Of a DNA stretch of 57,489 nt, positions 12,342 through 30,382 are shown piece after piece. Position numbers and translations under genes: made by a program. Origin of the DNA: a virus; IMG/VR virus record IMGVR_UViG_3300031973_001259, positions 1 to 57,489 of that record; one strand, 5' to 3'. Under the pieces are notes generated by a model. It ran no database searches. It had not been told where the DNA came from and saw nothing but the letters and a program-made list of their open reading frames with translations. Position 1 is the stretch's first letter. The number at the start of each line of letters is the position of its first letter.

Positions 12342-12902
12342 TCAAGATTCATCAATAATACTAATGTTCATAGCAACAGCAATCCTTCTCCCCTTCGTAG
12401 GCGGAACATGATGTGTAATGAATCCAGGAAACAAAACTAACATCCCATTCTTTACATGGACTTCCTTATCTTCCAATAAGATAGGAGCAACATCTTCTTC
12501 GACATCAATATAGTAAACGCAAGACCATGCTGATGGAAAGTGATCATGAGGGGTAGCTTGATCACCCTCCTCCATGACTACTGCCCATAAAGAAGCGAGT
12601 TTATACTTTGCATGAGTATGGAATACCTGCTCCGTAATGTAGTCTAGCACATATATGACATAATTGCCAATGTCCAAAAACCTATCATCAGTTTGATGTG
12701 TATCCCACTTAGTTAACCATGCCTTGACAGAATGGCCTGCGGTCTCATCTGTATCCAGATATTCTGGATCTTGAGATCTTTTCTCCAGAATTATATCTTT
12801 AAATCTATTAAATTCTTCTGGACCATTTTCAATAATAAAGGTGGGCAACTTAGTGACCACCTTATCATATTGAATAACCCTAGATGTAGGTCCGTTCTCC
12901 AT
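12342..12902 (-). CDS. 2-oxoglutarate/Fe(II) oxygenase-like protein
   Basis: A 186-residue paralogue of the gene at 11785. ATG at 12902 is preferred to a TTG at 12914; it overlaps the end of the protease-fibre gene by 23 bp. Shared elements are TPHDHFPSAWSCVYYIDVEE (candidate ligand His residues), MLVLFPGFITHHVPP (distal His) and GRRIAVAMNIS (Arg). Substrate is unknown; hydroxylation of a virion protein such as the adjacent fibre is one possibility. Confidence 0.65.
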   Translation of the reverse strand: MENGPTSRVIQYDKVVTKLPTFIIENGPEEFNRFKDIILEKRSQDPEYLDTDETAGHSVKAWLTKWDTHQTDDRFLDIGNYVIYVLDYITEQVFHTHAKYKLASLWAVVMEEGDQATPHDHFPSAWSCVYYIDVEEDVAPILLEDKEVHVKNGMLVLFPGFITHHVPPTKGRRIAVAMNISIIDES

Positions 12903-15900
12903 CTTGTCCACCAAGCGTCATAATACTAAGTTCGCCCAAGTCTTCAAGGGCAGGAATTCCATTATACACCCTAACGGTATATCCGTTAACTGTTCTGTCA
13001 GAAATTCGTAAATTAACGATACCACCTGGGAAAGCATTTGTACCACTTGCGATACCAATGACAGCATAGTCAGTATCATTCATTGCATCAGCAAAGTTAA
13101 CATTGTAGATACCAGTACCGGTTTGAACGATAGAGCTTACATTATGTGAGCGATCTCCAGGGACATAATCACTGTTACCAACACCAAGGTTAGTGTTCAT
13201 GTACCAAGAAGTGGCGCGACCTTCATAGAATTGAGTGTAAGTAGCAGTCTTGAGACCTACAAGATTCTTAAACTCCCCAACTCTGCTGACCTTATGGAAA
13301 TCATTATTAAACACTTGGATGGAGTTACCCATGCTTCCAAATTGTGTTCCAATACCAGCACCATAATACAAGAGTTGAGGAGTGTTCTCATCAATGAGAA
13401 TTTCAGTATAAGTTCCAGTCTCAGTTACATTATCAGAGTACTGATTCGGAGTTGTTGTACCAAATCCTACTGCAGAACCATCTGCAGCATAGTAGAACCT
13501 GATCGGATAGTTTACCTGCTGTGATGCATTCTCAAAGCGATAGGTTTGACCTACTTCAAATCTCAGGTAAGGAGATTCATAACCCTGAACATTGATAGAA
13601 CGATCAGATCCGATGCCATAATATCTGTGATCTGTTGTCTTTGTACCAATAGTAGTAGGTAGAGGCTTGTATGTGCCCTCAAACTGCGTATAAAGGTTCT
13701 TAGCGGTGTCTGCAGCGCCCGTTAAGGTGGAGAAACTAGAACTATTAGCAAAGAGTGCATTGTTTGCCTGAGAGGCGAGTCCAGCGAGCGTAGCGTAGGT
13801 AGCAATGCCAGCGACAATAGCCTCAGATGCAATACCTGCAAGTGTAGCACGAGGTGCCTCGTTAATCGTTACTGTAACGATACCAGCAGAGACTGGACTT
13901 ACATCGAGACCAGCATTAAAGTTGACTGTTCCTGCTGTACCGACTGCGGATCCAGAGTCTTGAATGATGACACCGGAACCAGAAGCAACAATATTAGTTA
14001 ACTGAGATCCGTCACCAATAAATCTCGGTGCAGTGATGTCATTATTAGATGTGATTGTAGCATCAACATCCAATTGAGAAGCTGTTCCTGCAGTTGTTGC
14101 ACTGTCAGCAGTATTTGCCGAGGTCGCTGTGGTTGCTACCGTAGCCAATCCAGCAACAGTTGCAAAGTCTGCTTGAGTTGCTTTAGGAACAGAAACCCCA
14201 GCGGCAAGACTATTAGCAGTTTGTGCAACACCTACGGTATCTGCAGCAGTAATAGTGACAATACCAGCAGAGATTTGAGATACTGTCAGATTCTGACCGA
14301 AGTTAATAGTAGCAGCAGTACCAACAGTACTATCATCATCCTTAATGATGACACCTGCACCAACACCAGTTACACCAGTAATACCAGAACCATCTCCAAA
14401 GAATGCAGTAGCAGTAATGTTACCGCTGGTATTAACATTGATGTTTGTACCAATACCAGAGGGACCAGGGTCCTGAGGTACAGAGTGAGCAACAAAAGTC
14501 AGATTGGGTTTAGAACCACGAACAATCAAGCTCTGACCCTTAGCAAGAGCAAGGTTGTCGATCTGAACATCCTGCAGAGGAGCCAGTCTTAAACCAAATA
14601 CCAGGTAGTCAGACTCTTGGAACTGTGCGAGACCACCAGAGGACAGACCAACTGACATGCCAACAGTAGAGTCAGAGTTCTGGTTTGTAGCATGAACTGT
14701 GACTAGGCTATCTTCTTGTGCTGTAAAAAACTCAAGGTTAGTATTGATCTGGAAAGGAGGATTGAATCCAAGAGTACCAGATCTTCTTCTACCATGAACC
14801 AGAGCAGAGTCAGGACCCAACTTATCAAACTTTCTAGTAGCAAAGGCAAGGAAAGAGATGTTAGGGTCGAAAGAAGATACGAAGATCTTATCTCCAGGTT
14901 TGATACCAACTTTTTCAATCAGTCTCGTACCACCTCTATCAAGGGGAATACCATAGGTAATATAGTCACTCCTTTTGAATCCAGGAGTACTAGAAATACC
15001 AATAGAGAATGTAGAACGGAAGTCGTTCTGGTTTGCAACACTAATGCTAACCTCAAGGAGGTTATCTGCCTCATATAACTGAACCGGCTCAACAACACCG
15101 TTCGTTAGTGTTGTTTTAATAGAAGCAAGTCTACCAACCTCAGCAAGAGCAGCAGAAGGAGTGGTGAAAGAAATTACTGCTGAGAAAGGAGATGTATGTT
15201 CAACACCAGATGTACCATCAGCGTTAGAAAGATGACGACATCTTACATAGAAGGTATGATTAGAGTTAAGTCCTTCAGGAATTATCTGAGATAAAGAAGT
15301 ATTATTGTTACCAACACTAGTAAATACTATAGTAGTAAATCCAATATCTTCAGCAACTTCAAACTCAACTGCTTTTAAAGTACCAGATACTGCTTCACTA
15401 TCAATAGAAACAAATGCACTGGATACAAGAGCAATACCAAATCTCTGATTTAGAGTAGTTCCACTGATAGGACTAATAATCGTAGGTGCCTGAACACCAG
15501 GAGCATTACCTAAGGTAGCGAATGAAACAATACCTGTAGAGTAATTAGAGGTATATGAAGTAAATGATGTGCCATCATCGTTAGACAGATGTCTTGTACG
15601 AGCATAGTGGGTCGTGAAACCTGCTAACTGAACATCAACTGTTTGGATTAGACTAGTATTATTATCTCCAGTAGATTCCCAGACAATAGAACTAAAGTCA
15701 GATGCAGTAGAGAGTTGCATCTCAACTGCTTTTAAAGTACCAGATACGGTAGTATCTCCAATAGCAACATAGCTACTAGATCTTATCTGTAAGCTTTCAG
15801 TACTAACACCAACATCATTATTGATTGGAGATTCAATAGTCGGTTCTGTAATACCAGCAGATTCTGTCAGAATACCAGAAGCAGTGTCAAGATAAACAAT

Positions 15901-17820
15901 CGCTACACTGCCACCAGATCCATCAGGACTTCTTTGGTTGAACTGACCAGTCCACCACTGAAAATTAGAATCACCATAGTCAGAAGTTGGAAACTGATCA
16001 AAGAGTAAATCGGAACCAGTCTGTGTACTACCAGCAGCAACAGTGGAAGAGTCCGTTGCACCAACACCAACACCCCGACCATAATCATTCAGCAACCACT
16101 GTCTCAGTTCCTGAGATGTAGCGTCAGGTTTTCTCTGCAAGTATAAAGCTACAAGACCAGTAACTACAGGAGCAGCAGCAGATGTACCGTTGAAGTTAGC
16201 GTCGAAATGAGTAGGATTATCATATCTCTGGAAGTCTGCATAAGGTCCACTAGGAAGACCAGCAGCTAGAGTGTCTTCAGCAGGTGCATAAATGTCAACA
16301 CCAGGACCACTATTAGAATATTCAGCTTTTCTTTCTTTGTAGCTAGATTCCACAAAGTCATCAAGAGCACCAACATTGATAACAGGATGATATCCAGTGG
16401 TCTCATCGACACCAATACCCTGAGGATTCATCCAATCCCTATGGGATGTTGGTGTCCTCTGTCCACCAAACTCAGCCCTTGGATCATTAGAACCAAAGTA
16501 TTGGTCGGCAACACCATTAAGTCTATGAGGATCTGTTCGTCCAATACCAATATACTGGTTGTTATTACCAGCAGCGGCAATCATAATTACACCGGCTTCG
16601 ATCATCTCAGCGCCAGCAGCATCAGTGGCGCTAGATCTAGATGAAGAAGACCATGATTTATAAGCACCTGATACTTGATTATTGAAACCAATAATCATAT
16701 CTTCAACACCAGCTGGAGCTCCAGCTGCGACACTGCTCATGTCAATGGTACTAGTAATACCAGTAAATTTGTATCTTACAGTTCCCGATGGGAGGACAGC
16801 AGCCTGATAACCCCAAGAACCATTAACAACCGTAGGATTTCTTACCCCAGTTTGAGTGTTTACTGGTTTATATTGATGGAAGAACTTAATGAGATCATAA
16901 GATGTCTCAATATCCATACCAACATTATCAGACACACAAGGCATTGCCCAGATGTTTGATTTAAATGCAAGACCAAAGTTCTTACCAGCAGCAAGAGATG
17001 CAGCTGCAGTACCGTGACCACTACCTAAGTTATTAGAACCTGCCGTGCCAATACCGATAGCACCATTTCTATTGTAACCAGGAGGAATAACTACTTCAGG
17101 AAGAAGAACGAACTCAGCAGATCTAGCATTGTTATCTTCCCACCATGCTTCAGCTCTAGCAGTATCAACACCTACTGATCCGTCTTCTAAGGTATAAACA
17201 AATCCACCACTATTAAAGTAACCAGGGTCAAGATAATATGGGAAGTCAAGAACAAGGTCAAGCACCCTACTTTTCCCACTATCATCCAAGAATTCTGGGT
17301 GTGATTGTAGAGTACCAGAGTCTTGAATAACAATATCTACATTTCTACCATCATATAAGAAGTTAAAGTTACCCTGCTTGGGTGCAATATCACCGACTAC
17401 ACCAGACCAAAAATCTCCGTTGGTTGCGATACCAGAAAGTCTAGGAAGTGCCCAGTTTGTTCTATTTAATTCTGCAGAAGTTGGATTTGAAGCTGGTGGA
17501 CCATTACTATCTAAATCTCTATAGATTTTAACATCACTATCAAACCTTAACGGCATTACCAGAGATGGATCTGGAAAGCTTTCTCTATTGTCCTTTAGTG
17601 AAAGTTCAATCCACTTAACATGAGGATGACGAGCAATCTCTTGAGCCTCGTCATCTGTTAACTCATAAGTACCACGAACTGCACTAATTGAGTGCTCATC
17701 GGTACAAGTAATTTTTCTGTCTGGAATTCCGTCCTGATTAGAGTCGATAGTGAGAGACCCATGGATCTCATTCCAATGATCAGCACTAGTAACTGCCAGG
17801 GTATATCTTTTAAGAGTCAT
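12880..17820 (-). CDS. Subtilisin-like protease fused to tail-fibre-like protein
   Basis: A 1646-residue protein. Residues about 45-75 resemble a subtilase I9-type propeptide (ELTDDEAQEIARHPHVKWIEL). Residues about 155-575 form a peptidase S8 domain with the full triad: Asp167 (VDIVIQDSG), His269 (GSGHGTAAA) and Ser547 (NGTSAAAP), plus the oxyanion Asn419 (AAAGNN). Two similar Fn3-like repeats follow (about 660-885, each with SGTLKAVE). The C-terminal half is phage-fibre-like, with two copies of an F-x-GDGS motif and Ala-rich repeats. No signal peptide is seen. It is probably a virion protein; the protease could process the fibre itself or attack host surface proteins. Confidence 0.85.
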   Translation of the reverse strand: MTLKRYTLAVTSADHWNEIHGSLTIDSNQDGIPDRKITCTDEHSISAVRGTYELTDDEAQEIARHPHVKWIELSLKDNRESFPDPSLVMPLRFDSDVKIYRDLDSNGPPASNPTSAELNRTNWALPRLSGIATNGDFWSGVVGDIAPKQGNFNFLYDGRNVDIVIQDSGTLQSHPEFLDDSGKSRVLDLVLDFPYYLDPGYFNSGGFVYTLEDGSVGVDTARAEAWWEDNNARSAEFVLLPEVVIPPGYNRNGAIGIGTAGSNNLGSGHGTAAASLAAGKNFGLAFKSNIWAMPCVSDNVGMDIETSYDLIKFFHQYKPVNTQTGVRNPTVVNGSWGYQAAVLPSGTVRYKFTGITSTIDMSSVAAGAPAGVEDMIIGFNNQVSGAYKSWSSSSRSSATDAAGAEMIEAGVIMIAAAGNNNQYIGIGRTDPHRLNGVADQYFGSNDPRAEFGGQRTPTSHRDWMNPQGIGVDETTGYHPVINVGALDDFVESSYKERKAEYSNSGPGVDIYAPAEDTLAAGLPSGPYADFQRYDNPTHFDANFNGTSAAAPVVTGLVALYLQRKPDATSQELRQWLLNDYGRGVGVGATDSSTVAAGSTQTGSDLLFDQFPTSDYGDSNFQWWTGQFNQRSPDGSGGSVAIVYLDTASGILTESAGITEPTIESPINNDVGVSTESLQIRSSSYVAIGDTTVSGTLKAVEMQLSTASDFSSIVWESTGDNNTSLIQTVDVQLAGFTTHYARTRHLSNDDGTSFTSYTSNYSTGIVSFATLGNAPGVQAPTIISPISGTTLNQRFGIALVSSAFVSIDSEAVSGTLKAVEFEVAEDIGFTTIVFTSVGNNNTSLSQIIPEGLNSNHTFYVRCRHLSNADGTSGVEHTSPFSAVISFTTPSAALAEVGRLASIKTTLTNGVVEPVQLYEADNLLEVSISVANQNDFRSTFSIGISSTPGFKRSDYITYGIPLDRGGTRLIEKVGIKPGDKIFVSSFDPNISFLAFATRKFDKLGPDSALVHGRRRSGTLGFNPPFQINTNLEFFTAQEDSLVTVHATNQNSDSTVGMSVGLSSGGLAQFQESDYLVFGLRLAPLQDVQIDNLALAKGQSLIVRGSKPNLTFVAHSVPQDPGPSGIGTNINVNTSGNITATAFFGDGSGITGVTGVGAGVIIKDDDSTVGTAATINFGQNLTVSQISAGIVTITAADTVGVAQTANSLAAGVSVPKATQADFATVAGLATVATTATSANTADSATTAGTASQLDVDATITSNNDITAPRFIGDGSQLTNIVASGSGVIIQDSGSAVGTAGTVNFNAGLDVSPVSAGIVTVTINEAPRATLAGIASEAIVAGIATYATLAGLASQANNALFANSSSFSTLTGAADTAKNLYTQFEGTYKPLPTTIGTKTTDHRYYGIGSDRSINVQGYESPYLRFEVGQTYRFENASQQVNYPIRFYYAADGSAVGFGTTTPNQYSDNVTETGTYTEILIDENTPQLLYYGAGIGTQFGSMGNSIQVFNNDFHKVSRVGEFKNLVGLKTATYTQFYEGRATSWYMNTNLGVGNSDYVPGDRSHNVSSIVQTGTGIYNVNFADAMNDTDYAVIGIASGTNAFPGGIVNLRISDRTVNGYTVRVYNGIPALEDLGELSIMTLGGQDGERTYI

Positions 17821-17893: not shown

Positions 17894-18691
17894 ATGAATA
17901 TTGTTACTGGAGCGAAGGGATTCATTGGTGGACACTTTGCCAAAAACATGGATAGTGTGCTTGAAATTGATATTGATAACTGCTTTGACCTGTTGAATAA
18001 ATTTAATCGTTGGGAAGAGGTAAACACAATCATCCACATGGGTGCTCGCTCATTCACAACAGATAAAAATGTAGATTTAATTTACAAGTATAATATTGAT
18101 TATAGCATCAAGCTATTTGAAAAGGCAATTGAGTATGGTATTCCCGTCAAGTATGCCTCCTCTGCTTCCACTTATGGTCGTTGCATGTCAACTGATGGTA
18201 TTATTAATCCTCTAAACCACTACGCATTATCAAAAGCAACGGTTGATTACTGGGTGCAAGACAATATGCATAGATTCTCACACATCCAAGGATTTAAGTT
18301 CTTTAATGTATATGGTAGCGGTGAGGTCCACAAAGGAGAGCAGGCAAGCCTTGTAAGTAAGTTCAAGTGGCAATCTGCTACAGGCAAAGTTCATCCCTTT
18401 GAAGGATCAAATAAGGTACATAGAGATTATATCTGGGTAGGAGACATTGTAAATGTTGTGCTCACTAATAGTGCAGGTAGTGGTATCTATGACCTAGGAA
18501 CTGGTGCTGCAATTACTATTCAAGAAGTGGCAGATTTAGTTGCACAAAAAACCGAGGCTATGGTAGAGGAAATTCCTTTCCCACCAAACCTCGTTGGTAA
18601 GTATCAATACAATACTCAAGCAGATATGAATTGGTTAAACTATAAGTTCAAAACCGTTGCTGATTATATCAATTACCACGATGAATTCTGA
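17894..18691 (+). CDS. hldD: ADP-heptose 6-epimerase-like NAD-dependent epimerase
   Basis: A 265-residue short-chain epimerase. ATG at 17894 is chosen because the Rossmann motif TGAKGFIGGHF begins at residue 5; an upstream in-frame extension is unsupported. The catalytic Y110-x-x-x-K114 (HYALSKAT) and the HldD-type FFNVYG, then HKGEQAS stretch are present. HldD converts ADP-D-glycero- to ADP-L-glycero-D-manno-heptose. Length is below bacterial HldD (about 310). It is the only plus-strand gene among minus-strand neighbours and overlaps the cupin gene end-to-end by 23 bp. Confidence 0.8.
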   Translation: MNIVTGAKGFIGGHFAKNMDSVLEIDIDNCFDLLNKFNRWEEVNTIIHMGARSFTTDKNVDLIYKYNIDYSIKLFEKAIEYGIPVKYASSASTYGRCMSTDGIINPLNHYALSKATVDYWVQDNMHRFSHIQGFKFFNVYGSGEVHKGEQASLVSKFKWQSATGKVHPFEGSNKVHRDYIWVGDIVNVVLTNSAGSGIYDLGTGAAITIQEVADLVAQKTEAMVEEIPFPPNLVGKYQYNTQADMNWLNYKFKTVADYINYHDEF

Positions 18692-19028
18692 TTGAGTCTG
18701 AATCAAAGTGTTGCGTTGAGAATTCAAACAGTTCTGAGTCTTCCAACGCAATCATCTGATGCTTTAGCCCAGTAGGAACATAAAACTTATCTCCAGGTTC
18801 TAAGACTTTAAGTTCTGCTTTACTGAGATCTTCATCCCACCCAAAATACAATGAGATGAGACCACTCTGTAGGTAGAAGGTCTCATCTTTTATTTTATGG
18901 TAGTGCCACGAGCACCTTTTGTTCTTTTCCAGGAACAAAAGTTTACCACAGTACATTTCATTATTTACAATCCACTTTTCATAACCCCATCCTTTGGGGA
19001 CTACCTTAATTGAAGAAGTCTTTGTCAT
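18669..19028 (-). CDS. Cupin-fold protein, sugar-phosphate isomerase-like
   Basis: A 119-residue single-domain cupin; ATG at 19028 is used rather than an upstream TTG. Metal-binding motif 1 is SWHYHKIKDETFYLQSG (two His and a Glu) and motif 2 LEPGDKFYVPTGLKHQM. The opening KGWGYEKWIVNN resembles the type II mannose-6-phosphate isomerase cupin. In this cassette an isomerase or epimerase step on a sugar phosphate is plausible, but the substrate is not visible. It overlaps the HAD gene by 23 bp. Confidence 0.7.
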   Translation of the reverse strand: MTKTSSIKVVPKGWGYEKWIVNNEMYCGKLLFLEKNKRCSWHYHKIKDETFYLQSGLISLYFGWDEDLSKAELKVLEPGDKFYVPTGLKHQMIALEDSELFEFSTQHFDSDSIRIHRGN

Positions 19029-19329
19029 TAATTCCCTTGTCGTCAATGTAATAATCTGATGATGGTTTACCTAGATATAAATTATGAAACTTACACCCCC
19101 ACGACTCTAATTGATTCTTAGTAAATTCGTAGAACTCTTTCTCAGCTAACTCACGATTATTATCGTACCTACCCATGCCTCTGGCGGTAAGATAATTTAT
19201 AGTATGACCTTCATCATAAAGCTTATTTATTTTCTGTATACGATCCCATCTAGGGGTTGCGAGAGTATACCTAGATTCTCCCTTCCCAGCATAGCAAATT
19301 GTTTCATCGATATCAACAGTATATCTCAT
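19006..19329 (-). CDS. HAD-superfamily phosphatase-like protein
   Basis: A 107-residue HAD-like protein. Motif I is VDIDETIC (residues 5-12), motif II is in NYLTARGMGR (Thr/Arg), and the C-terminal motif is YYIDDKGIND. Small HAD proteins of this kind sit in capsule and nucleotide-sugar clusters. In ADP-heptose synthesis a GmhB-type phosphatase removes the 7-phosphate from heptose 1,7-bisphosphate; this gene is the only candidate here for that step. It is shorter than GmhB (about 190), so the match is tentative. It overlaps the kinase gene by 4 bp. Confidence 0.65.
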   Translation of the reverse strand: MRYTVDIDETICYAGKGESRYTLATPRWDRIQKINKLYDEGHTINYLTARGMGRYDNNRELAEKEFYEFTKNQLESWGCKFHNLYLGKPSSDYYIDDKGINDKDFFN

Positions 19330-20120: not shown

Positions 20121-20481
20121 AATCTTCTAACCTAGGGAAAAAATGTAATTCAGTAGCGTACATAGATCCAATGACTGACTTTCCTTCCCAGTCAGATCCT
20201 ACTACCATTATATCAGGTGCAGTAACAGCTATGCACTTTTCTAGTTCTTCATCAGAACCAAATAGAACTACATGATCTACAGTCTTAAGACTTTGTAGCA
20301 TGTATGCTCTATCTTCGGCGTTATTTATTGGGCGAGAAGGACCTTTCTTTTCCCTTACCCGCTCATCACTATCAATACCAACAACTACTACATCACCCAT
20401 AGACTTTGCATACTCTAAGAGTTGCAAATGTCCAGAATGAAGAATATCAAAGGTTCCGTTTACAAAAACTTTTTTAGTCAT
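20077..20481 (-). CDS. Nucleotidyltransferase (HldE C-domain / TagD-like)
   Basis: A 134-residue cytidylyltransferase-like protein with the HxGH motif in FVNGTFDILHSGHLQLL (His15, His18) and a later ISTSS-like position reading YATSKTIQSII. In context it would be the heptose-1-phosphate adenylyltransferase half of HldE; a glycerol-3-phosphate cytidylyltransferase is the alternative. It overlaps the carbamoyltransferase by 8 bp and the kinase by 44 bp. Confidence 0.8.
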   Translation of the reverse strand: MTKKVFVNGTFDILHSGHLQLLEYAKSMGDVVVVGIDSDERVREKKGPSRPINNAEDRAYMLQSLKTVDHVVLFGSDEELEKCIAVTAPDIMVVGSDWEGKSVIGSMYATELHFFPRLEDYATSKTIQSIIDRG

Positions 20482-22267
20482 TAGATACCTGGATTATTTT
20501 ACCATATTCAGGAAGATAAAGATACTCGATATCAGAGTTAGCAAGAGTACGGCAAGCGTCGTCCAAGGTCTCCACCAGAGGTTCACCACCAAGATTAAAA
20601 GAGGTATTGAACAAAATCGGACAACCCGTAGCATCATAGAAGGTTTTGATGAGGTCATAGTAATTCTTGTTCTGTTCTTCAGTAACAGTTTGAATACGAC
20701 ATGTTCCGTCAACATGAATAATAGCTGGGATCTTTTCTTCAATACCAGGTTGACACTTAACAGCATACATCATGAAGGGAGTATCTTCCATCCCACGCAA
20801 ATCAAACCATTCGTCAGCATATTCAGCAAGAATAGATCCAGCAAAGGGACGGAAGTATTCACGATGCTTCACATTATTAACAAAATCTTTACCCTCAGGA
20901 TCACGGGGATCATAAAGAATAGAACGATTGCCGAGAGCACGAGGACCAGCTTCTGATTTTCCTTGGAAAAGTGCGACGATATTCTCATTAGAGATCAAAT
21001 TAATTACATCGTCATTGTTAGCATCACTTACAATACCACTATACTTGTCAGCAATATCAATAATCTGCTCAATAGTATAGTTATAGTCAGGACCATAGTA
21101 CAAATCAGTAATTCTAGAGGGAACTGTTGTTTGTTTCTTACCATTCAATTGATAATGTACATATAAGGCAGCTCCAATAGCAGTTCCACCATCATTACTG
21201 ACAGGTTCAACAAAGAGATTGATACCATCTTCTTTCAACTTATCAAGATACCAATAGTTTGCTACACAATTCAATCCATATCCACCAGAAAGAACAATAT
21301 TCTTTTTACCAGTGAGTTCAACTGCTTTATAGATTAGCTTCAAAACTGCTTCTTGCGTTTCAGTTTGCACTGCATAAGCAAAGTCTCTACGATTCTTAAG
21401 TTTGGTCAAATCGTCAGAATCATGATTATTTAAAAAAGGATATTCTTGAACATTAACATGCCCAGCATTAGGATAAGTAGGAACAATAACATTCCTATCT
21501 ACTGTTCCAACCTCTTTAAATAGAGTGGGGACTTCTTCGTTAGGTTCTCCATATGGAAATAATCCCATAGTTTTACCAGCCTCGATAGCATGCCAACCAC
21601 AGTATTGTGTAGCAGCTTCATATGCTTTTACGATACCTGCAGTTTCATCGAGAGTATAAGAGAAGAAACCAGTTTCACCAGGATAAGCCATTGCTGCTTC
21701 CATTTCAGGAACATAATTTGTGCAGCAGGGACCACGAGTTCCGAGATGTTTATATACAGTATTAATGTCGTTTGGGAACTTACAATTAAAAATAGTTTCA
21801 GTTTCCCATACAGTTTCAGTATGCCCCATTACATCAAACTGAATGAAGGTTCCGGCTCCATCAACTACAAGTGCAGCTGCTTCTTCAAATCCAGACCGAT
21901 AAAAAGCAGCAGCAGCATGAAGTTTATGGTGAACATTACCAACATCAACAACTTGAGGATGCATCTTGCTTGGATCTGGTTCTACATCTTTAATCAAACC
22001 AAGTTTTCTTGCCATCCCAACATAGATTGCCTCATTGCTATACTCAAGACTACCACAATCCCTCTCCATTAATTGAGTGTGACCAACAACAAGATAATCA
22101 AGTTTATCAGTGTACTTCTGTATCTCTAATAGTGAGGCAATAGGTCCGCCATCATATTTACGACGAGATAATCTCTCTTCCTCAACAGCAAAAATAAGCT
22201 CACCATCTTTCAGAAGACATACTCCAGCGTTGTGTCCGCGAGTGATACCAGCAATCCACTGTGTCAT
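20474..22267 (-). CDS. NodU/CmcH-type carbamoyltransferase
   Basis: A 597-residue O-carbamoyltransferase. The Kae1-like N-domain has GITRGHNAGVCLLKDGELIF and EEERLSRRKYDG, a metal-binding HHKLHAAAAFYRSGF (about residues 113-127), VVDGAGT, and the VLSGGYGLNCVANYW stretch (about 320). The YrdC-like C-domain contains EAGPRALGNRSIL and FNTSFNLGGEPLVET. Length is typical. These enzymes move carbamoyl from carbamoyl phosphate via carbamoyl-AMP to a sugar hydroxyl. Beside heptose genes the acceptor could be a heptose, as known for the Pseudomonas LPS core. Confidence 0.9.
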   Translation of the reverse strand: MTQWIAGITRGHNAGVCLLKDGELIFAVEEERLSRRKYDGGPIASLLEIQKYTDKLDYLVVGHTQLMERDCGSLEYSNEAIYVGMARKLGLIKDVEPDPSKMHPQVVDVGNVHHKLHAAAAFYRSGFEEAAALVVDGAGTFIQFDVMGHTETVWETETIFNCKFPNDINTVYKHLGTRGPCCTNYVPEMEAAMAYPGETGFFSYTLDETAGIVKAYEAATQYCGWHAIEAGKTMGLFPYGEPNEEVPTLFKEVGTVDRNVIVPTYPNAGHVNVQEYPFLNNHDSDDLTKLKNRRDFAYAVQTETQEAVLKLIYKAVELTGKKNIVLSGGYGLNCVANYWYLDKLKEDGINLFVEPVSNDGGTAIGAALYVHYQLNGKKQTTVPSRITDLYYGPDYNYTIEQIIDIADKYSGIVSDANNDDVINLISNENIVALFQGKSEAGPRALGNRSILYDPRDPEGKDFVNNVKHREYFRPFAGSILAEYADEWFDLRGMEDTPFMMYAVKCQPGIEEKIPAIIHVDGTCRIQTVTEEQNKNYYDLIKTFYDATGCPILFNTSFNLGGEPLVETLDDACRTLANSDIEYLYLPEYGKIIQVSND

Positions 22268-23270: not shown

Positions 23271-24008
23271 TTATAAAAAGAAAACCTGATTCACTCGATC
23301 ATGTTCGGTGAACATCCCATGATCAATGTTCTGCGAGTGCATCACATCAGATTCATAAAAGATACATCTATTATACACCATTTCAGCCTCATATTCAACT
23401 CTCCACTCCCTATCACCATACAACCACTTTCTGATGTATGGAAAACATTGTTCGGGTCTTGTAACCTCATCATCAAATCCCTCGGGTTTGTCAATATATT
23501 CCGTTACCTTATATGGAAGAGACATCTGCCCCTTGTACGAATATAAATTTGTACCACCTTGACATTCTTCTGGAGTATTCAAATAAATCACTGCGCCAAA
23601 CTGATTGGATTCTGTAGTAAGCTCTTGCAGATATGAATCTTGATGAGGAATATTGAACCATGGTGCATGAAATGCACTATCATAATTCATAACATTACAC
23701 ATGAATCCAACAGTATCCCACTGGAATTCATATGATTGTTTATCAATATTCTTAGACCATAGAGAATTGTCTAAACAATACTCATCAAAAAAGGGTTTAA
23801 GATTCTTCTTTACTTCTGAAGTCTCTTTGAATATTCTTTGACCAGGAAGATCGCCTATTAAACTCTCATTTGTTTTTCTCTCTAAGCTTAAAGAGAGATT
23901 TCTTATTTCGTCTGGATTTTTATAAAAATTATCGGCAATTATAATCGTTCTATTTTGCGGTCCTACTCTCTTAACACTAACATCAAGATTTTCATTAAGT
24001 TCAAACAT
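23271..24008 (-). CDS. DUF6445-like 2-oxoglutarate/Fe(II) oxygenase
   Basis: A 245-residue protein resembling DUF6445 oxygenase-fold proteins. It shows IIIADNFYKNPDEIRNLSL near residue 23, the H-x-D in NIPHQDSYL, FGAVIYLNTPEECQGGTNLY, the distal His in FYESDVMHSQ and the final Arg in DRVNQVFFL. Prolyl- or other hydroxylation is the general chemistry; the substrate is unknown. It is 26 bp upstream of the GT9-like gene and just past the adhesin terminator. Confidence 0.7.
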   Translation of the reverse strand: MFELNENLDVSVKRVGPQNRTIIIADNFYKNPDEIRNLSLSLERKTNESLIGDLPGQRIFKETSEVKKNLKPFFDEYCLDNSLWSKNIDKQSYEFQWDTVGFMCNVMNYDSAFHAPWFNIPHQDSYLQELTTESNQFGAVIYLNTPEECQGGTNLYSYKGQMSLPYKVTEYIDKPEGFDDEVTRPEQCFPYIRKWLYGDREWRVEYEAEMVYNRCIFYESDVMHSQNIDHGMFTEHDRVNQVFFL

Positions 24009-24086: not shown

Positions 24087-24968
24087 TCAGGACCAAGTTG
24101 TAACAACAACCAGTCCACCACCACCCCAGTCACCCCAGCATTGACTGCCTTGGGTAGATCCAGAGAATCCACCGCCACCAGGGAACAACGAAGGTGAAGA
24201 ACAACATCCTCTACTGTTACCATAGGAGCAGCGAGTTACACCAAAGTTTCTATCTGTGGACCAAGGACCAACTGGAGAAGATGCAACTGCAAAGTCGTCC
24301 GAGTGACAACTATACGATTTAAATTCACCACCGGACAAACCACAAATGTAGAATTCGTTTTCTGGGTTTGCTGTATCAGGCTTAGATTGTCCATCAGGCC
24401 AAGAAGCAGAGCAAGCGTTATAACAATTGTTTCTTTGTGCTTGCTTTGCACAGGCATAACAAGAAGCAACTGTACACTTTTGGTTAGAGTAAGATCCGCC
24501 CTGCATACAGAAGGTTCCTAATCCACCACCTAAGACGAAAGAAGGGCACCCATAGAATCCACAACCGGTTCTACCGTGACAACAACCACAGCAGGAACAC
24601 CTACTAGTAGATCCCGAACAAATTGTAAACTGAGTAGATCCAGCGACAAAATGACCACAGTTAGCGTACTGCATCTTGGTGGCATAACCACCACCACCGC
24701 CACCCATACCAGCACCGTTGCCGCAGCAACGACCACCTGCACCTGATCCACCACCAGATACAATTTCAAATTGAATAGTGGTTACTTTTTCTGGTACGGT
24801 CCAGAGGTAACAACATCCACCATTACATGGGACATTATGACAACAGTTATAATAGAAGCTTCGACAAACATTACCCGTAGATACGCCCGTTACTTTAGTT
24901 GGACCTACAGTTCCGTTAATAAATGCATCATCAGCATCAATTTTTTTATAGGTCTGATAATCCGCCAT
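24087..24968 (-). CDS. Cysteine-rich glycine-rich tail adhesin, copy 1
   Basis: A 293-residue protein with 29 cysteines, including CC, CxCC and CGCCHGRTGCGFYGC clusters. Residues about 57-80 (WTVPEKVTTIQFEIVSGGGSG) match the glycine-rich fold of phage fibre-tip proteins, and GGGGG loops and FPGGGGFSG recur to the C-terminal VVTTWS. It is a paralogue of the gene at 25748, with every cysteine conserved. A virion tip adhesin stabilised by disulfides or metal is the best guess. It lacks a signal peptide, so oxidation would have to occur after lysis or with help. Confidence 0.75.
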   Translation of the reverse strand: MADYQTYKKIDADDAFINGTVGPTKVTGVSTGNVCRSFYYNCCHNVPCNGGCCYLWTVPEKVTTIQFEIVSGGGSGAGGRCCGNGAGMGGGGGGYATKMQYANCGHFVAGSTQFTICSGSTSRCSCCGCCHGRTGCGFYGCPSFVLGGGLGTFCMQGGSYSNQKCTVASCYACAKQAQRNNCYNACSASWPDGQSKPDTANPENEFYICGLSGGEFKSYSCHSDDFAVASSPVGPWSTDRNFGVTRCSYGNSRGCCSSPSLFPGGGGFSGSTQGSQCWGDWGGGGLVVVTTWS

Positions 24969-24973
24969 AATAA

Positions 24974-25717
24974 TTAGGCTCCTACAGTGCTAGTATCAGT
25001 AGAATCCAATCCAGTCTCAGGAGAATCTCCAGTAAATGCGTCACGATCACCAGGCTCTCTAGGCCATACGATCAGATAAGTATTGTTACCAACACTACTC
25101 CAAGTATCTGGCAAGTCTCTCAACTTTTGACGATATGTTGTCCACTCACTAACAAAACCTGCTGGAGCGTCTGCAGGAATTTTATCATCAGATTGTGCAA
25201 GTAAGATATCTCTTGTTCTTCTTACTTCTTCCCATCCAAAGGAATGACTAGCAGATTCATCTTCTAGATCAATTTCTGTGTGGGGACCAGAGAATCTACC
25301 TGTATTCCAAAGACTAGTCTCAAAATTATAACCGAATGAGCACATATCATATACTTCATTGAAGTAAAGATAGTTAGGAATGATTGGGTTAGGCTCCGAA
25401 TCAGGACCAGCAGGAGTTTCAATCAGTTCTGGAGGAAGAATACCTCCATACATTGCAACTGCATTCATAGGATGAGTATCAGCATTAAGCTCAACAACTC
25501 TTGCCCCAGCTGGAGGATCTCTGTCTTCACCAGGATCAGATGGGAAAGAATGCTCTACTTCCCACTTAGGATCAGCATCTGTTCCATTATTCATATACCA
25601 GAAAGTAATCCTATCTGGTCCAGTATATGTACAGATACCACTTCTATTTGTGTCCTGAGTATCGCCATACCACTCGGTAGGTACAGGATAAACAATTGTT
25701 TTAGTAATTTGCGCCAT
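24974..25717 (-). CDS. Tail assembly chaperone-like protein
   Basis: A 247-residue protein. The C-terminal part (about residues 161-206), GWEEVRRTRDILLAQSDDKI...WTTYRQKLRDLP, matches the phage tail-fibre assembly chaperone domain (Phage_tail_APC-like). The N-terminal 150 residues are Pro/Asp/Gly-rich beta structure and may be structural. It is placed between the two cysteine-rich paralogues and is transcribed with copy 1 from the late promoter at 25742. It probably assists their folding or attachment. Confidence 0.65.
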   Translation of the reverse strand: MAQITKTIVYPVPTEWYGDTQDTNRSGICTYTGPDRITFWYMNNGTDADPKWEVEHSFPSDPGEDRDPPAGARVVELNADTHPMNAVAMYGGILPPELIETPAGPDSEPNPIIPNYLYFNEVYDMCSFGYNFETSLWNTGRFSGPHTEIDLEDESASHSFGWEEVRRTRDILLAQSDDKIPADAPAGFVSEWTTYRQKLRDLPDTWSSVGNNTYLIVWPREPGDRDAFTGDSPETGLDSTDTSTVGA

Positions 25718-25741
25718 TGCTAAAATGTACTCCGTTGTAAG

Positions 25742-25748
25742 TATTTAT
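25742..25748 (-). promoter_or_regulatory. T4-type late promoter fused to adhesin copy 2 stop
   Basis: The minus strand reads TGATAAATA, where TGA ends adhesin copy 2 and ATAAATA is the promoter element, about 25 bp upstream of the chaperone-like gene. Confidence 0.6.
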
Positions 25749-26626
25749 CAGGACCAAGTTGTAACAACTACGAGACCGCCGCCGCCCCAGTCACCCCAGC
25801 ATTGACCACCTTGACTCGCACCACTAAATCCACCACCACCAGGGAACAACGAAGGTGAAGAACAACATCCTCTAGTGTCACCAGTGGAGCAACGACCTAC
25901 TCCAAAGTTTCTTCCACTTGTCCAAGGACCAACTGGAGAAGATGCAACTGAAAATGATCTTGAGTGACAGTTAACATGCTTCAGTTCACCACCGGACAAA
26001 CCACAAATATAGAATTCGTTTTCTGGGTTTGCTGAATCAGGCTTAGATTGTCCATCAGGCCAAGAAGCAGAGCAAGCAGTAAGACAGTTGGTTCTTTGTG
26101 CTACTTTCAGGCAAGCGTAGCAACTATTAGTGCATCTCTGCGATGCGAAAGATCCACCTTGCATACAGAAGGTTCCTAATCCACCACCTAAGACGAAAGA
26201 AGGGCACCCATAGAATCCACAACCGGTTCTGCCATGGCAACATCCACAACAAGAACATCTGCTACTGGAACCAGCACAAACAGTAAACTGAGTAGATCCA
26301 GCGACAAAATGACCACAGTTAGCGTACTGCATTTTAGTAGCGTAACCGCCGCCGCCTCCACCCATGCCAGGTCCATTACCACAGCAACGACCACCTGCAC
26401 CTGATCCGCCACCAGATATAATTTCAAATTGAATCGTAGTTACTTTTTCTGGTACGGTCCAAAGGTAGCAGCAACCGCCATTACATGGGACATTATGGCA
26501 ACAGTTAAAATAAAAGCTTCTACAAACATTACCTGTAGATACGCCCGTTACCTTACCGGGTCCAATGGTTCCATCAATAACTGCATCAGAGGCATCGATT
26601 TTTTTATAGGTTTGATAGTCAGCCAT
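25748..26626 (-). CDS. Cysteine-rich glycine-rich tail adhesin, copy 2
   Basis: A 292-residue paralogue of the gene at 24087. The N-terminal 150 residues and the last 60 are nearly identical between the copies. Divergence is concentrated in two stretches, about residues 154-175 (SFASQRCTNSCYACLK here) and 212-255. All 29 cysteines are at equivalent places. The pattern suggests a recent duplication with selection on variable, probably receptor-facing, loops. It has its own late promoter at 26660. Confidence 0.75.
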   Translation of the reverse strand: MADYQTYKKIDASDAVIDGTIGPGKVTGVSTGNVCRSFYFNCCHNVPCNGGCCYLWTVPEKVTTIQFEIISGGGSGAGGRCCGNGPGMGGGGGGYATKMQYANCGHFVAGSTQFTVCAGSSSRCSCCGCCHGRTGCGFYGCPSFVLGGGLGTFCMQGGSFASQRCTNSCYACLKVAQRTNCLTACSASWPDGQSKPDSANPENEFYICGLSGGELKHVNCHSRSFSVASSPVGPWTSGRNFGVGRCSTGDTRGCCSSPSLFPGGGGFSGASQGGQCWGDWGGGGLVVVTTWS

Positions 26627-26713: not shown

Positions 26714-29700
26714 TCAGATGGTGATGATTCTCCATCCTTGTGATCCATCATAGTATACCAATTCAAATGCCGCGCCTTCAGTAGATACAACCAAGTCAGC
26801 AGCGTCACCCATGATTGGTTCACCATTTCTACCAATTGTAAGGTTGTTAGTATCAAATGTCTTGGCGATATCAAAGATTCTAATGGAGTCACCCTTAACA
26901 GGAGATAAAGGTAAAGTGACAGTGAATGAACCACCACTAGTATTACACCAAGCTTGCTGTCTATTTGCCAATGTAGTTCCATCAGCACTGACATCTACAT
27001 TAGCGTAAGCACCTAGAGGCAACCAACTAGATCCGTTATAGAATTCAAATCCATCAGCATCAGTATCGTAACGAAGACCACCTTCGATCAGATCAACACC
27101 AGTTGGACGAGAGGCTTGAGCACCACGAGGAGGAACCAGGATACCAGAAGTGGAATCCATCTTACCGCGAGTGAGGAAGCCACGAACTGCTTTCTCAGTA
27201 GGACATGCACTGTTAGAGTCGCCAGACAGGAATTCGTCCGAGGAGAATTCGTTGACTGCTTCACCAATCTGACCACCAATGGCACCCAGTCTCAGTTCAG
27301 AAAGACCTGACAGGTTGAATGCGGAAGCATCCAGGGTAGCAGCACCAGTCAACTGGTTAACAGAGAAGTATTCACCAACTCTGAAGTTACCGCCTTGGTC
27401 AGTAGATACGAAGAAGATCTTACCAGTATTCAGTACAGTTGTCTCGTTACCCTGAGAAGCTGTGTTCTCATCAACAGTTGGATAATTAGTTTGTGAGGTG
27501 TTACCTGTACCAATTAGCAGGAAGTCATGACCTGTGAGACGAACCTTGGAGAACTTAGATCTCATCAAGAACTCTTGATCATCAAACGAAGCAGGAGCAG
27601 ATCCTTTAACTGGTGCAATGTTGATCGTTGCACGACCAGATGCAAAGTCATATGCAGAAACTGTTCTAATAATGTAACTAATTGAATCGGAGAATCCCAA
27701 TCCAACTGTAGTGAATCCAATCGCATCACCAACAAGTGGTGTTGTACTCAGTCCGACTACTTCAAATAGTCCATCTTTCTGTCCGCCAACGGCGTTAGAT
27801 GCAGATGCAATCTTAACATATCCTGTAGCACCAGCACCAACACTGTCAAATTCAATGAACTCACCAGGTGTGAAGACAGTAGTACCAACACCAACAGCAC
27901 CGTTAGCACCATCGGGGTTACCAAATCCAGCATTGTACTTAAAGTACAGTTGATCACCAGCGATCTGATTGTTTGTAACAACAGCACGAGCTCCTGATAC
28001 AGTACCACGCATCGTAGCACCAACAGAGATAGTACCAGCAGAAGTACCAACTTGGGTAGACATCTTGTCACCATAGAGGCGACCAGGACGAGCAGATTCT
28101 AGTGTGGAGAATCCAACAGCCAATGCACCGTAGTTACCATAGGAGTTGTTACCTGAGAGAGATCTGATTTCAGATCCATCATCAGAAACATAACCGAAAG
28201 CACAGTAGTAAGTGAAGGAAGAAACAATTTCAGCAAGAGCATCGTCTTCAAGCCAGAAACCTACGCCACCGGAGTGAATGTTGGTAAAGGCATCGAATAC
28301 CATCGATTTACCACCTCTACCCTCTCGTGCTTGCCTGGCTTCGTGAACACCACCCTCAATAAAGACACCAATAGCACCTTGATGTCCAGTGCCGTCAATA
28401 CACAGGTTAGAGAAGGCAGTACAGTCTTTGATGTAGGGTGAACGCTCAAGGATAGGAGTATCAGGATTAAGTCTGAAGTAAACACCGCAAGATGTAGTAC
28501 CTACACCAACCTTGGGTTGCCACTTATCAGTATTGAAAGCATCATTAGTGTCATAATTAAATCCTTGCAGACCACGCATCGTGATTGCCTGAACCGTAGT
28601 AGAGTCAGACACGAAGAACATCGTCTGACGGCTATTAGGAACAAGACCGTCAGTGGAAACACCAGGTGCTGGTTCAACAGTCGTTCCTCTCAGGACATCA
28701 CCGGCAATGGAGAAGTTCTTAGGTAGAGTAATAGGAAGCTGTTCACTGAATACACCAGCAGACAACTTAAGAATGATAGGAGATACATCAGTAACCTCAC
28801 CACCACTCACATAAGTATGAGCAATAGTAGAGATGCCAACATTAGTTACGAAACTGTTGGAATCATTAACGGCGTCAACTCTAAAGAAGAATCCTTGTGT
28901 ACCATCAGGGAAGATAGTAGTTGTAACACCAGCATGTGCCTGAGCACAAGTGAATGCAATACCCTGAAGTTTAACCTGACCCTGAGGGAACAAACCATGG
29001 GCAGCAGCAGTAACTGTTGCAATACCACTGGTTTCATCATAAACAAAGTTTGTGATATCCCTTCTGGTTTGACCAGCAGTAGAAGCATAAGCAATTGAAC
29101 CCCAAGCATTGTCTGGGGTAAGACCTGTGTTATTATTACTACCCTGCTGTGCATCAACATAGTATACCTTGGTGCGAAGACCAGGATACTGCCACTCAAT
29201 CTCATCGCCAGAAGAGACTCTTAGATATGTGCCTTGCGTACCAATACCCTGTCTCGTAGGTCCAGTACCATCTCTGGTAAGCAAGTCACCTTTGGTTGTC
29301 AGCAGTGCTGCGCTGTCACCGATAGCGAACGCTGCCCACATGCTAACAGCAGTACCAGGTTGAACATTAATGTTCGATGAAGCTACCGAGATGTAAGCAG
29401 AGGATGAATACTCGGCAACATCACCGATCTCATATACACTAGAACCACTCCAGGTACTTCTCCAGTTAAATCCTCTAGCTAACAGAGACCAACCATTAGT
29501 ACCAGTATCAATGGTAGTAATAGCAGTACCGACAGGTCGGTTGTCTCCAAGAATCTTAACTTGGTCAGCAATATAAGTATTACCACCAAGGGTTACAATC
29601 TCACCACGAGCATAGATCTCATTAGGATCGTAGGTAGTACCTGCTCCAGTACCAATACCACCAACAAGAACTGACCACTGATCAGCGTTTTCGTTAGGTT

Positions 29701-30382
29701 GAGCACCTTTAGGGTTAGTACCGATAGCAACATAAGATGCACCGATGTACTCTACAATATCCCCCCTTTCATAGCGGGTATTTGCATTGTAAAGACCTTC
29801 ATTAGTGAAGGCTTTATTAAAGTCTGTAAAATTAGATGCTGGAGGATAGAAACCATCCGAACCTACTCCAGTAGGATCATGGAAACTAGTAGAAACCCCC
29901 TGCATTGTAAAGTCGCTAGCGACTTGGAAGGGAACAATTGTACGATACTCTTGTCCACCATACTTAACAACATCATTGATGCCATAATAAGTGGCAGTTG
30001 TAAAAGCACCTCGGAAGTTCAGTCCCTCAGCATAGAGATCCCAGTATGCTGGGAAATCAGAACTGTACCAGTTGCTTTGTACACCAACTGACACATGTTG
30101 TGCCGTACAGATATATTGATTACCGCCTTCCTTGACGATATCGTTTACAACATATCCGGTGCTAACTGTCCACTCGCCAGCATAGTTCTGACCCTCTGTA
30201 TGGAGGTCCCAGTTGGCACTATCGTTTGGAAATCCAGTAGAACTGGCATCTGAAGTATGATTTGTTGTACAAACATAACTGCTGGCACCGTATCTAACGA
30301 TGTCATCAATAATGAATGCGGTAGAAGCTGTCCAGGCACCACGCCAGTTAAATTTCAGTCTACCAAGTCTAAATTCTGCCAT
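26714..30382 (-). CDS. Large tail-fibre or virion structural protein
   Basis: A 1222-residue protein. The N-terminal third (to about residue 350) has at least five repeats of a W-x-Y-x-x-xDIV-x-YG-x-xY pattern (for example DIVRYGASSYVC, DIVKEGGNQYIC, DVVKYGGQEYRT), resembling small carbohydrate-binding modules. The middle (about 400-850) looks like a beta-solenoid fibre. The C-terminal part has FFVSTDQGGNFRVGEYFSVNQ and a GGLRYDTDADGFEFYNGSSW collar-like region. It is a late structural gene of a type common in cyanophages and probably binds the host envelope. Confidence 0.75.
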   Translation of the reverse strand: MAEFRLGRLKFNWRGAWTASTAFIIDDIVRYGASSYVCTTNHTSDASSTGFPNDSANWDLHTEGQNYAGEWTVSTGYVVNDIVKEGGNQYICTAQHVSVGVQSNWYSSDFPAYWDLYAEGLNFRGAFTTATYYGINDVVKYGGQEYRTIVPFQVASDFTMQGVSTSFHDPTGVGSDGFYPPASNFTDFNKAFTNEGLYNANTRYERGDIVEYIGASYVAIGTNPKGAQPNENADQWSVLVGGIGTGAGTTYDPNEIYARGEIVTLGGNTYIADQVKILGDNRPVGTAITTIDTGTNGWSLLARGFNWRSTWSGSSVYEIGDVAEYSSSAYISVASSNINVQPGTAVSMWAAFAIGDSAALLTTKGDLLTRDGTGPTRQGIGTQGTYLRVSSGDEIEWQYPGLRTKVYYVDAQQGSNNNTGLTPDNAWGSIAYASTAGQTRRDITNFVYDETSGIATVTAAAHGLFPQGQVKLQGIAFTCAQAHAGVTTTIFPDGTQGFFFRVDAVNDSNSFVTNVGISTIAHTYVSGGEVTDVSPIILKLSAGVFSEQLPITLPKNFSIAGDVLRGTTVEPAPGVSTDGLVPNSRQTMFFVSDSTTVQAITMRGLQGFNYDTNDAFNTDKWQPKVGVGTTSCGVYFRLNPDTPILERSPYIKDCTAFSNLCIDGTGHQGAIGVFIEGGVHEARQAREGRGGKSMVFDAFTNIHSGGVGFWLEDDALAEIVSSFTYYCAFGYVSDDGSEIRSLSGNNSYGNYGALAVGFSTLESARPGRLYGDKMSTQVGTSAGTISVGATMRGTVSGARAVVTNNQIAGDQLYFKYNAGFGNPDGANGAVGVGTTVFTPGEFIEFDSVGAGATGYVKIASASNAVGGQKDGLFEVVGLSTTPLVGDAIGFTTVGLGFSDSISYIIRTVSAYDFASGRATINIAPVKGSAPASFDDQEFLMRSKFSKVRLTGHDFLLIGTGNTSQTNYPTVDENTASQGNETTVLNTGKIFFVSTDQGGNFRVGEYFSVNQLTGAATLDASAFNLSGLSELRLGAIGGQIGEAVNEFSSDEFLSGDSNSACPTEKAVRGFLTRGKMDSTSGILVPPRGAQASRPTGVDLIEGGLRYDTDADGFEFYNGSSWLPLGAYANVDVSADGTTLANRQQAWCNTSGGSFTVTLPLSPVKGDSIRIFDIAKTFDTNNLTIGRNGEPIMGDAADLVVSTEGAAFELVYYDGSQGWRIITI

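Follow-up and report, generated by a model that had tools for sequence, protein, structure and literature searches.

A cysteine-rich family of probable tail-fibre tip adhesins, encoded in one to three copies by T4-like cyanophages

The window analysed here, a stretch of 57,489 nucleotides (positions 1 to 57,489 of IMG/VR record IMGVR_UViG_3300031973_001259), belongs to a T4-like cyanophage, as identified by its psbA, psbD, purM, purC, tryptophan halogenase and heptose genes. Its photosynthesis and purine block was found to be nearest to that of S-CAM8, with 86% nucleotide identity. The locus of interest contains two cysteine-rich paralogs, copies A and B, in the following arrangement:

23271..24008, minus strand: DUF6445 protein, downstream neighbour of copy A (245 aa; PHROG label 'minor coat protein')
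24087..24968, minus strand: copy A, Cys-rich, Gly-rich probable tail-tip protein (293 aa, 29 Cys, 54 Gly)
24974..25717, minus strand: tail fibre assembly chaperone-like protein, between copies A and B (247 aa, 2 Cys)
25748..26626, minus strand: copy B, Cys-rich, Gly-rich probable tail-tip protein (292 aa, 29 Cys, 58 Gly)
26714..30382, minus strand: long tail fibre protein, immediately upstream of copy B (1222 aa)

The protein encoded between the copies matched Phage_tail_APC (PF16778) at 39.1 bits, above the cut-off of 26.6, as well as the tail fiber assembly families phrog_9740 and phrog_4912. The initial annotation had described the paralogs as adjacent; they are neighbours, but this chaperone-like gene intervenes. 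The 1222-aa protein matched the tail fiber protein family phrog_9851 (E=1.5e-248), with the fibres of Sf-FS3 and S-SSM7 as its best relatives (44–45% identity), and is the likely carrier of the tip. In Sf-FS3, the place of the DUF6445 gene is taken by one whose annotation is prolyl-4-hydroxylase-like 2OG-Fe(II) dioxygenase. Downstream of the DUF6445 gene lie one gene without a Pfam match and then carbamoyltransferase and heptose genes. In most of the isolates examined, a carbamoyltransferase gene and heptose-type sugar genes (20474–22267 in the window) follow directly downstream of the tip cassette, and perhaps provide a surface-sugar modification tied to tip type. A cupin gene (18669–19046, minus strand), labelled cysteine dioxygenase in PHROGs, accompanies heptose genes in many cyanophages. 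Its product was considered as a dedicated thiol enzyme and rejected, as it also occurs with heptose genes in S-SM2, P-TIM68 and Bellamy, and a link to the Cys-rich tips is therefore not evident. The window also encodes a 1646-aa protein (12880–17820, minus strand) whose N-terminal third contains a subtilase domain (PF00082) and whose C-terminal part has tail-fibre-like matches.

Copies A and B are identical at 253 of 293 alignment columns (87%), and all 29 cysteines of one copy pair with those of the other, as had been counted at the outset. Divergence had also been described as restricted to two stretches. The differences are concentrated there, with 25 of 40 falling in columns 160–184 and 216–252, but they are not confined to them (five lie close to the N-terminus and ten are scattered). 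The codons of the shared cysteines differ between TGT and TGC at nine of 29 positions, which indicates that the pair is not a fresh copy. Recent gene conversion between A and B was ruled out, since about a third of four-fold sites differ (89 of 131 identical); this divergence, together with the codon switches, indicates that selection preserves the protein identity. In the protein tree, the copies of some genomes cluster with each other, though their synonymous sites are near 50% identical. At locus L016 (5001–5879 and 6666–7544) the copies share 93% protein identity and only 50% identity at four-fold sites, and the proteins are nearer each other than to copies elsewhere.

The cysteine content of both proteins is exceptional. 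The other ORFs of the window have a mean of 1.28% Cys, and the probability of finding at least 29 in 292 residues is 4e-17. Such a density had been called very unusual for a T4-like virion protein, and this holds when it is set against the T4 mean of 0.9% Cys (PMC10811340).

Both copies matched the full-length profile of PHROG 4205 ('unknown function') over residues 2–290 (E=5.6e-21 for copy A and 8.9e-20 for copy B), as did all 60 family members tested. A profile search over 201 loci yielded 376 unique full-length members, all with 7–12% Cys against a background median of 1.4%, although the queries were Cys-rich, so Cys-poor relatives would be under-represented in this set. Members in S-SSM7, P-SSM2, S-CAM1, S-CAM3 and Sf-FS3 are annotated as hypothetical proteins, and each of these five phages has a gene order of the same type, in which the Cys-rich genes number two or three. 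Cassettes were surveyed with an HMM of the chaperone-like partner, in loci that overlap in part. With C for a Cys-rich gene and h for the chaperone-like gene, the orders found were CCCh (140 loci), ChC (20 loci; the order of the window, P-SSM2 type), Ch (20 loci) and ChCCh (four loci), and nearly all loci combine their Cys-rich genes with one of the chaperone family. The 140 loci with three tandem Cys-rich paralogs in fixed order include L001 and L122. When the copies of 114 unique triples were compared between phages, the closest counterpart had the same order index in 338 of 342 comparisons, which indicates that three paralog lineages are stably maintained. Their persistence suggests that the roles are non-redundant, with the copies acting as several adhesins or as parts of a heteromeric tip, and a heterotrimeric tip is possible in the three-copy phages. 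The proposal that the pair provides paired receptor specificities draws slight support from the position of the variable stretches in long excursions between model strands, but phages with one, two and three copies all exist and A and B are very alike.

The fold was approached with AlphaFold2 models of copy B (pLDDT 68, pTM 0.71) and of a relative from L122 (pLDDT 85, pTM 0.81). In separate Foldseek searches, the top PDB match of both was the Pam3 fibre protein gp24 (E=6.4e-6 for B and 9.1e-7 for the L122 relative), followed by Bxb1 tail-tip proteins and then ALK/LTK glycine-rich domains. The TM-scores to Pam3 (0.40–0.54) show the same kind of fold rather than close homology. Sequence searches of the PDB found no relative, and a weak single-sequence match to actinohivin was dropped. 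Gly_rich_2 (PF21722) matched copy A at 21.8 bits (E=2.2e-4), below the curated cut-off of 24.3, and did not match copy B. It matched 28 of 60 family members (best E=1.5e-8), with members from S-SSM7, S-CAM1, S-CAM3 and Sf-FS3 above the cut-off. The gp24 fold match and the dedicated chaperone gene (PF16778, between the copies) are both features of a Pam3-type tip. The earlier suggestion of a fibre-tip fold is thus borne out by the two models, the Gly_rich_2 members and the flanking long-fibre and chaperone-like genes, and copies A and B are very probably tail-tip adhesins. Synteny and fold together suggest that they are virion components, and we infer that they bind receptors. Virion proteomes are available for S-SM1, Syn9 and S-PM2 (PMC3037559); none of these phages has a match to the Cys-rich profile, and their proteomes therefore cannot settle virion membership.

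Cys-poor counterparts are encoded by related phages. Mosig has a Gly_rich_2 protein directly after a related tail fibre (4 Cys in 516 aa), and Gly_rich_2 proteins by tail fibre genes were found in S-SM1 (no Cys in 350 aa), Syn9 (2 in 266 aa) and S-CAM8 (1 in 393 aa). Several core cysteines of the Cys-rich family align with Ser, Ala, Val or Thr in these proteins. The Cys-rich family is absent from S-CAM8, which is near the window in the photosynthesis block. On the basis of these counterparts and this absence, the Cys-rich tip appears to be a module that can be exchanged between phages, and a variant of a general Gly-rich tail-tip adhesin design. Syn9 gp39 (NC_008296, 31149–32327; L213, 6150–7328) has a duplicated Gly-rich stretch with an interruption resembling out-of-frame translation; it may contain a second tip gene that has decayed or undergone a frameshift.

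The initial annotation would have been contradicted by cysteines that are not conserved in homologs. In the clade of the window (26 unique close-relative proteins), 28 of 29 cysteines are fixed compared with 123 of 263 other residues (Fisher p=4.5e-8); cysteine is the most conserved residue class there, while 53% of other positions vary. Across the whole family conservation is partial. Twelve cysteines of copy B (C48, 53, 82, 117, 124, 141, 154, 169, 181, 220, 254 and 276) are kept in at least 85% of 316 sequences, and the others relocate by clade, often by one or two residues within one loop, with 21–36 cysteines per member. In copy B, only seven of the 29 cysteines lie within predicted strands, and most would be in loops or at the loop base. 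Even and odd cysteine counts are equally frequent (24:24, family clustered at 60%), and a single gain or loss occurred on 134 of 220 branches with cysteine changes. Both observations argue against simple, complete intrachain disulfide pairing, whereas the initial annotation's broader suggestion of metal binding or oxidation after release is plausible. A search for paired gain and loss of cysteine columns, as a means of disulfide mapping, gave no convincing pairs; the strongest consisted of neighbouring columns, where alignment slippage is likely. Homeostasis of cysteine number was also considered and dropped, as a variance test gave no support to a branch analysis that had looked compensatory. 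A CxxCH-like heme motif at C127–H131 was rejected because the His is not conserved.

The explanation that we favour is that A and B are the distal tips of the cyanophage tail fibre, on which a cysteine overlay has been placed. Each tip would be a beta-sandwich of the TNF-like type, and its long glycine-rich loops would build the distal lattice that contacts the host, as in Pam3 gp24. It would fold with the help of the chaperone-like product encoded between A and B, and be mounted on the long fibre encoded upstream. The approximately 29 cysteines, mostly within the glycine-rich loops and at the loop base, would stay reduced during assembly in the cell. Once virions are in oxic seawater, intrachain and probably also interchain disulfides would form in the tip and make its floppy glycine loops stiffer; interchain bonds or free thiols may account for odd cysteine counts. 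The oxidation state, its timing and the oligomer of the tip are our suppositions. Oxidation after release as the lock on the loops is the favoured chemistry, at even chances or slightly below, and the whole reading, adhesin and cross-linking combined, stands about equal chances of being right or wrong.

The main rival retains the adhesin but assigns its cysteines to metal coordination (Zn, Cu or Fe clusters) rather than to disulfides, with the metal holding the loops or taking part in docking on a metal-uptake receptor. Adjacent and near-adjacent cysteines are over-represented (CC 1.37x, CxC 1.26x), a His follows the near-invariant C220 in 238 of 316 sequences, and metal binding expects no parity or pairing constraint, as was observed. 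However, CxxC is only mildly enriched, many cysteines are displaced by one or two residues from one clade to another, which would perturb a specific metal site, and A, B and their relatives have no sequence match to a metalloprotein family. We consider metal binding a possible reading, though a rather doubtful one. Unlikely, by a shade more, is a redox- or metal-gated adhesin, which would be floppy when assembled in its reduced form and become binding-competent only after oxidation or metal uptake outside the cell, with cross-linking of different tip paralogs; the three-copy phages, with three lineages in fixed order and possibly a heterotrimer, would fit such a tip.

It could also be that the thiols of the same adhesin remain free and exchange disulfides with thiol-bearing host surface proteins, resulting in covalent attachment. 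With an odd number of cysteines, one thiol or more must be free or bonded between chains, and the cysteines are largely in predicted loops; yet these loop cysteines are the most conserved in the close clade, whereas receptor-contact residues of tips usually vary, which makes this reading improbable. A role outside the virion, with cytosolic or secreted proteins (e.g., metal-buffering or host-modifying) encoded in the tail region by chance, could be read from the position of the genes between the tail fibre and metabolic or sugar genes. It is very improbable given the fold, the Gly_rich_2 membership, the conserved place after the tail fibre and the constant chaperone-like partner. Compositional drift, with incidental cysteines replacing Gly, Ser or Ala in a low-complexity loop, is the least probable: some core columns are Ser, Ala or Thr in Cys-poor relatives and cysteine number is no more constant than the numbers of other residues, but the near-complete fixation in a clade where half of the other positions vary, the TGT/TGC switches at fixed cysteines and the lack of any family member below 7% Cys stand against it.

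The range of Prochlorococcus and Synechococcus cells that a phage can infect is set by its receptor-binding tips, and the tips of these phages have so far been annotated only as hypothetical proteins. A widespread family of unknown function is here placed, with high probability, at the fibre tip, together with a testable chemistry. If true, a protein of ~10% Cys that passes from a reducing cytosol into oxic seawater would clearly exemplify post-release virion maturation. The three-copy cassette and its order-conserved lineages make hetero-oligomeric tips directly testable in cultured S-SSM7, S-CAM1 and S-CAM3. The fold class and the adhesin role are already known; in the part of the literature covered, the cysteine overlay appears to be undescribed.

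Among known systems, the closest likeness is to gp24 of Pam3, a phage which also has a cyanobacterial host. This fibre tip has a TNF-like plus glycine-rich distal domain, as predicted for A and B, and requires the chaperone gp25 (PDB 7YFW, 7YPX; PMC9608196). Structural alignment with the models gave 14–18% identity. Pam3 gp24 has its own docking helices, whereas the family in the window consists of one to three separate tip genes, and its description mentions no cysteines or disulfides (PMC9608196). The Gly_rich_2 tips of Kyanoviridae (Syn9 gp38, S-SM1_049, Mosig_00062 and that of S-CAM8) are of the same Pfam family and have a comparable place near tail fibre genes, but possess 0–4 Cys compared with 21–36. 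S16 gp38 (PDB 6F45) likewise presents glycine-rich motifs with variable loops between them at a T4-like fibre tip. Its polyglycine sandwich has another core fold (beta-helix), the accessible portion of its description reports no Cys-rich feature, and 6F45 was absent among the Foldseek matches listed for both models. The glycine-rich extracellular domain of ALK/LTK has the same TNF-like plus glycine-rich architecture, with weaker Foldseek matches, but in a eukaryotic receptor. A precedent for disulfides in a phage virion is Agrobacterium phage Milano, which has an extensive disulfide network that extends to receptor-binding proteins, and 2.1% Cys in its structural proteins (PMC10811340). Its proteins are unrelated to A and B and its bonds are mostly in the sheath and baseplate, but the network indicates that virions assembled in a reducing cytosol can nonetheless contain disulfides.
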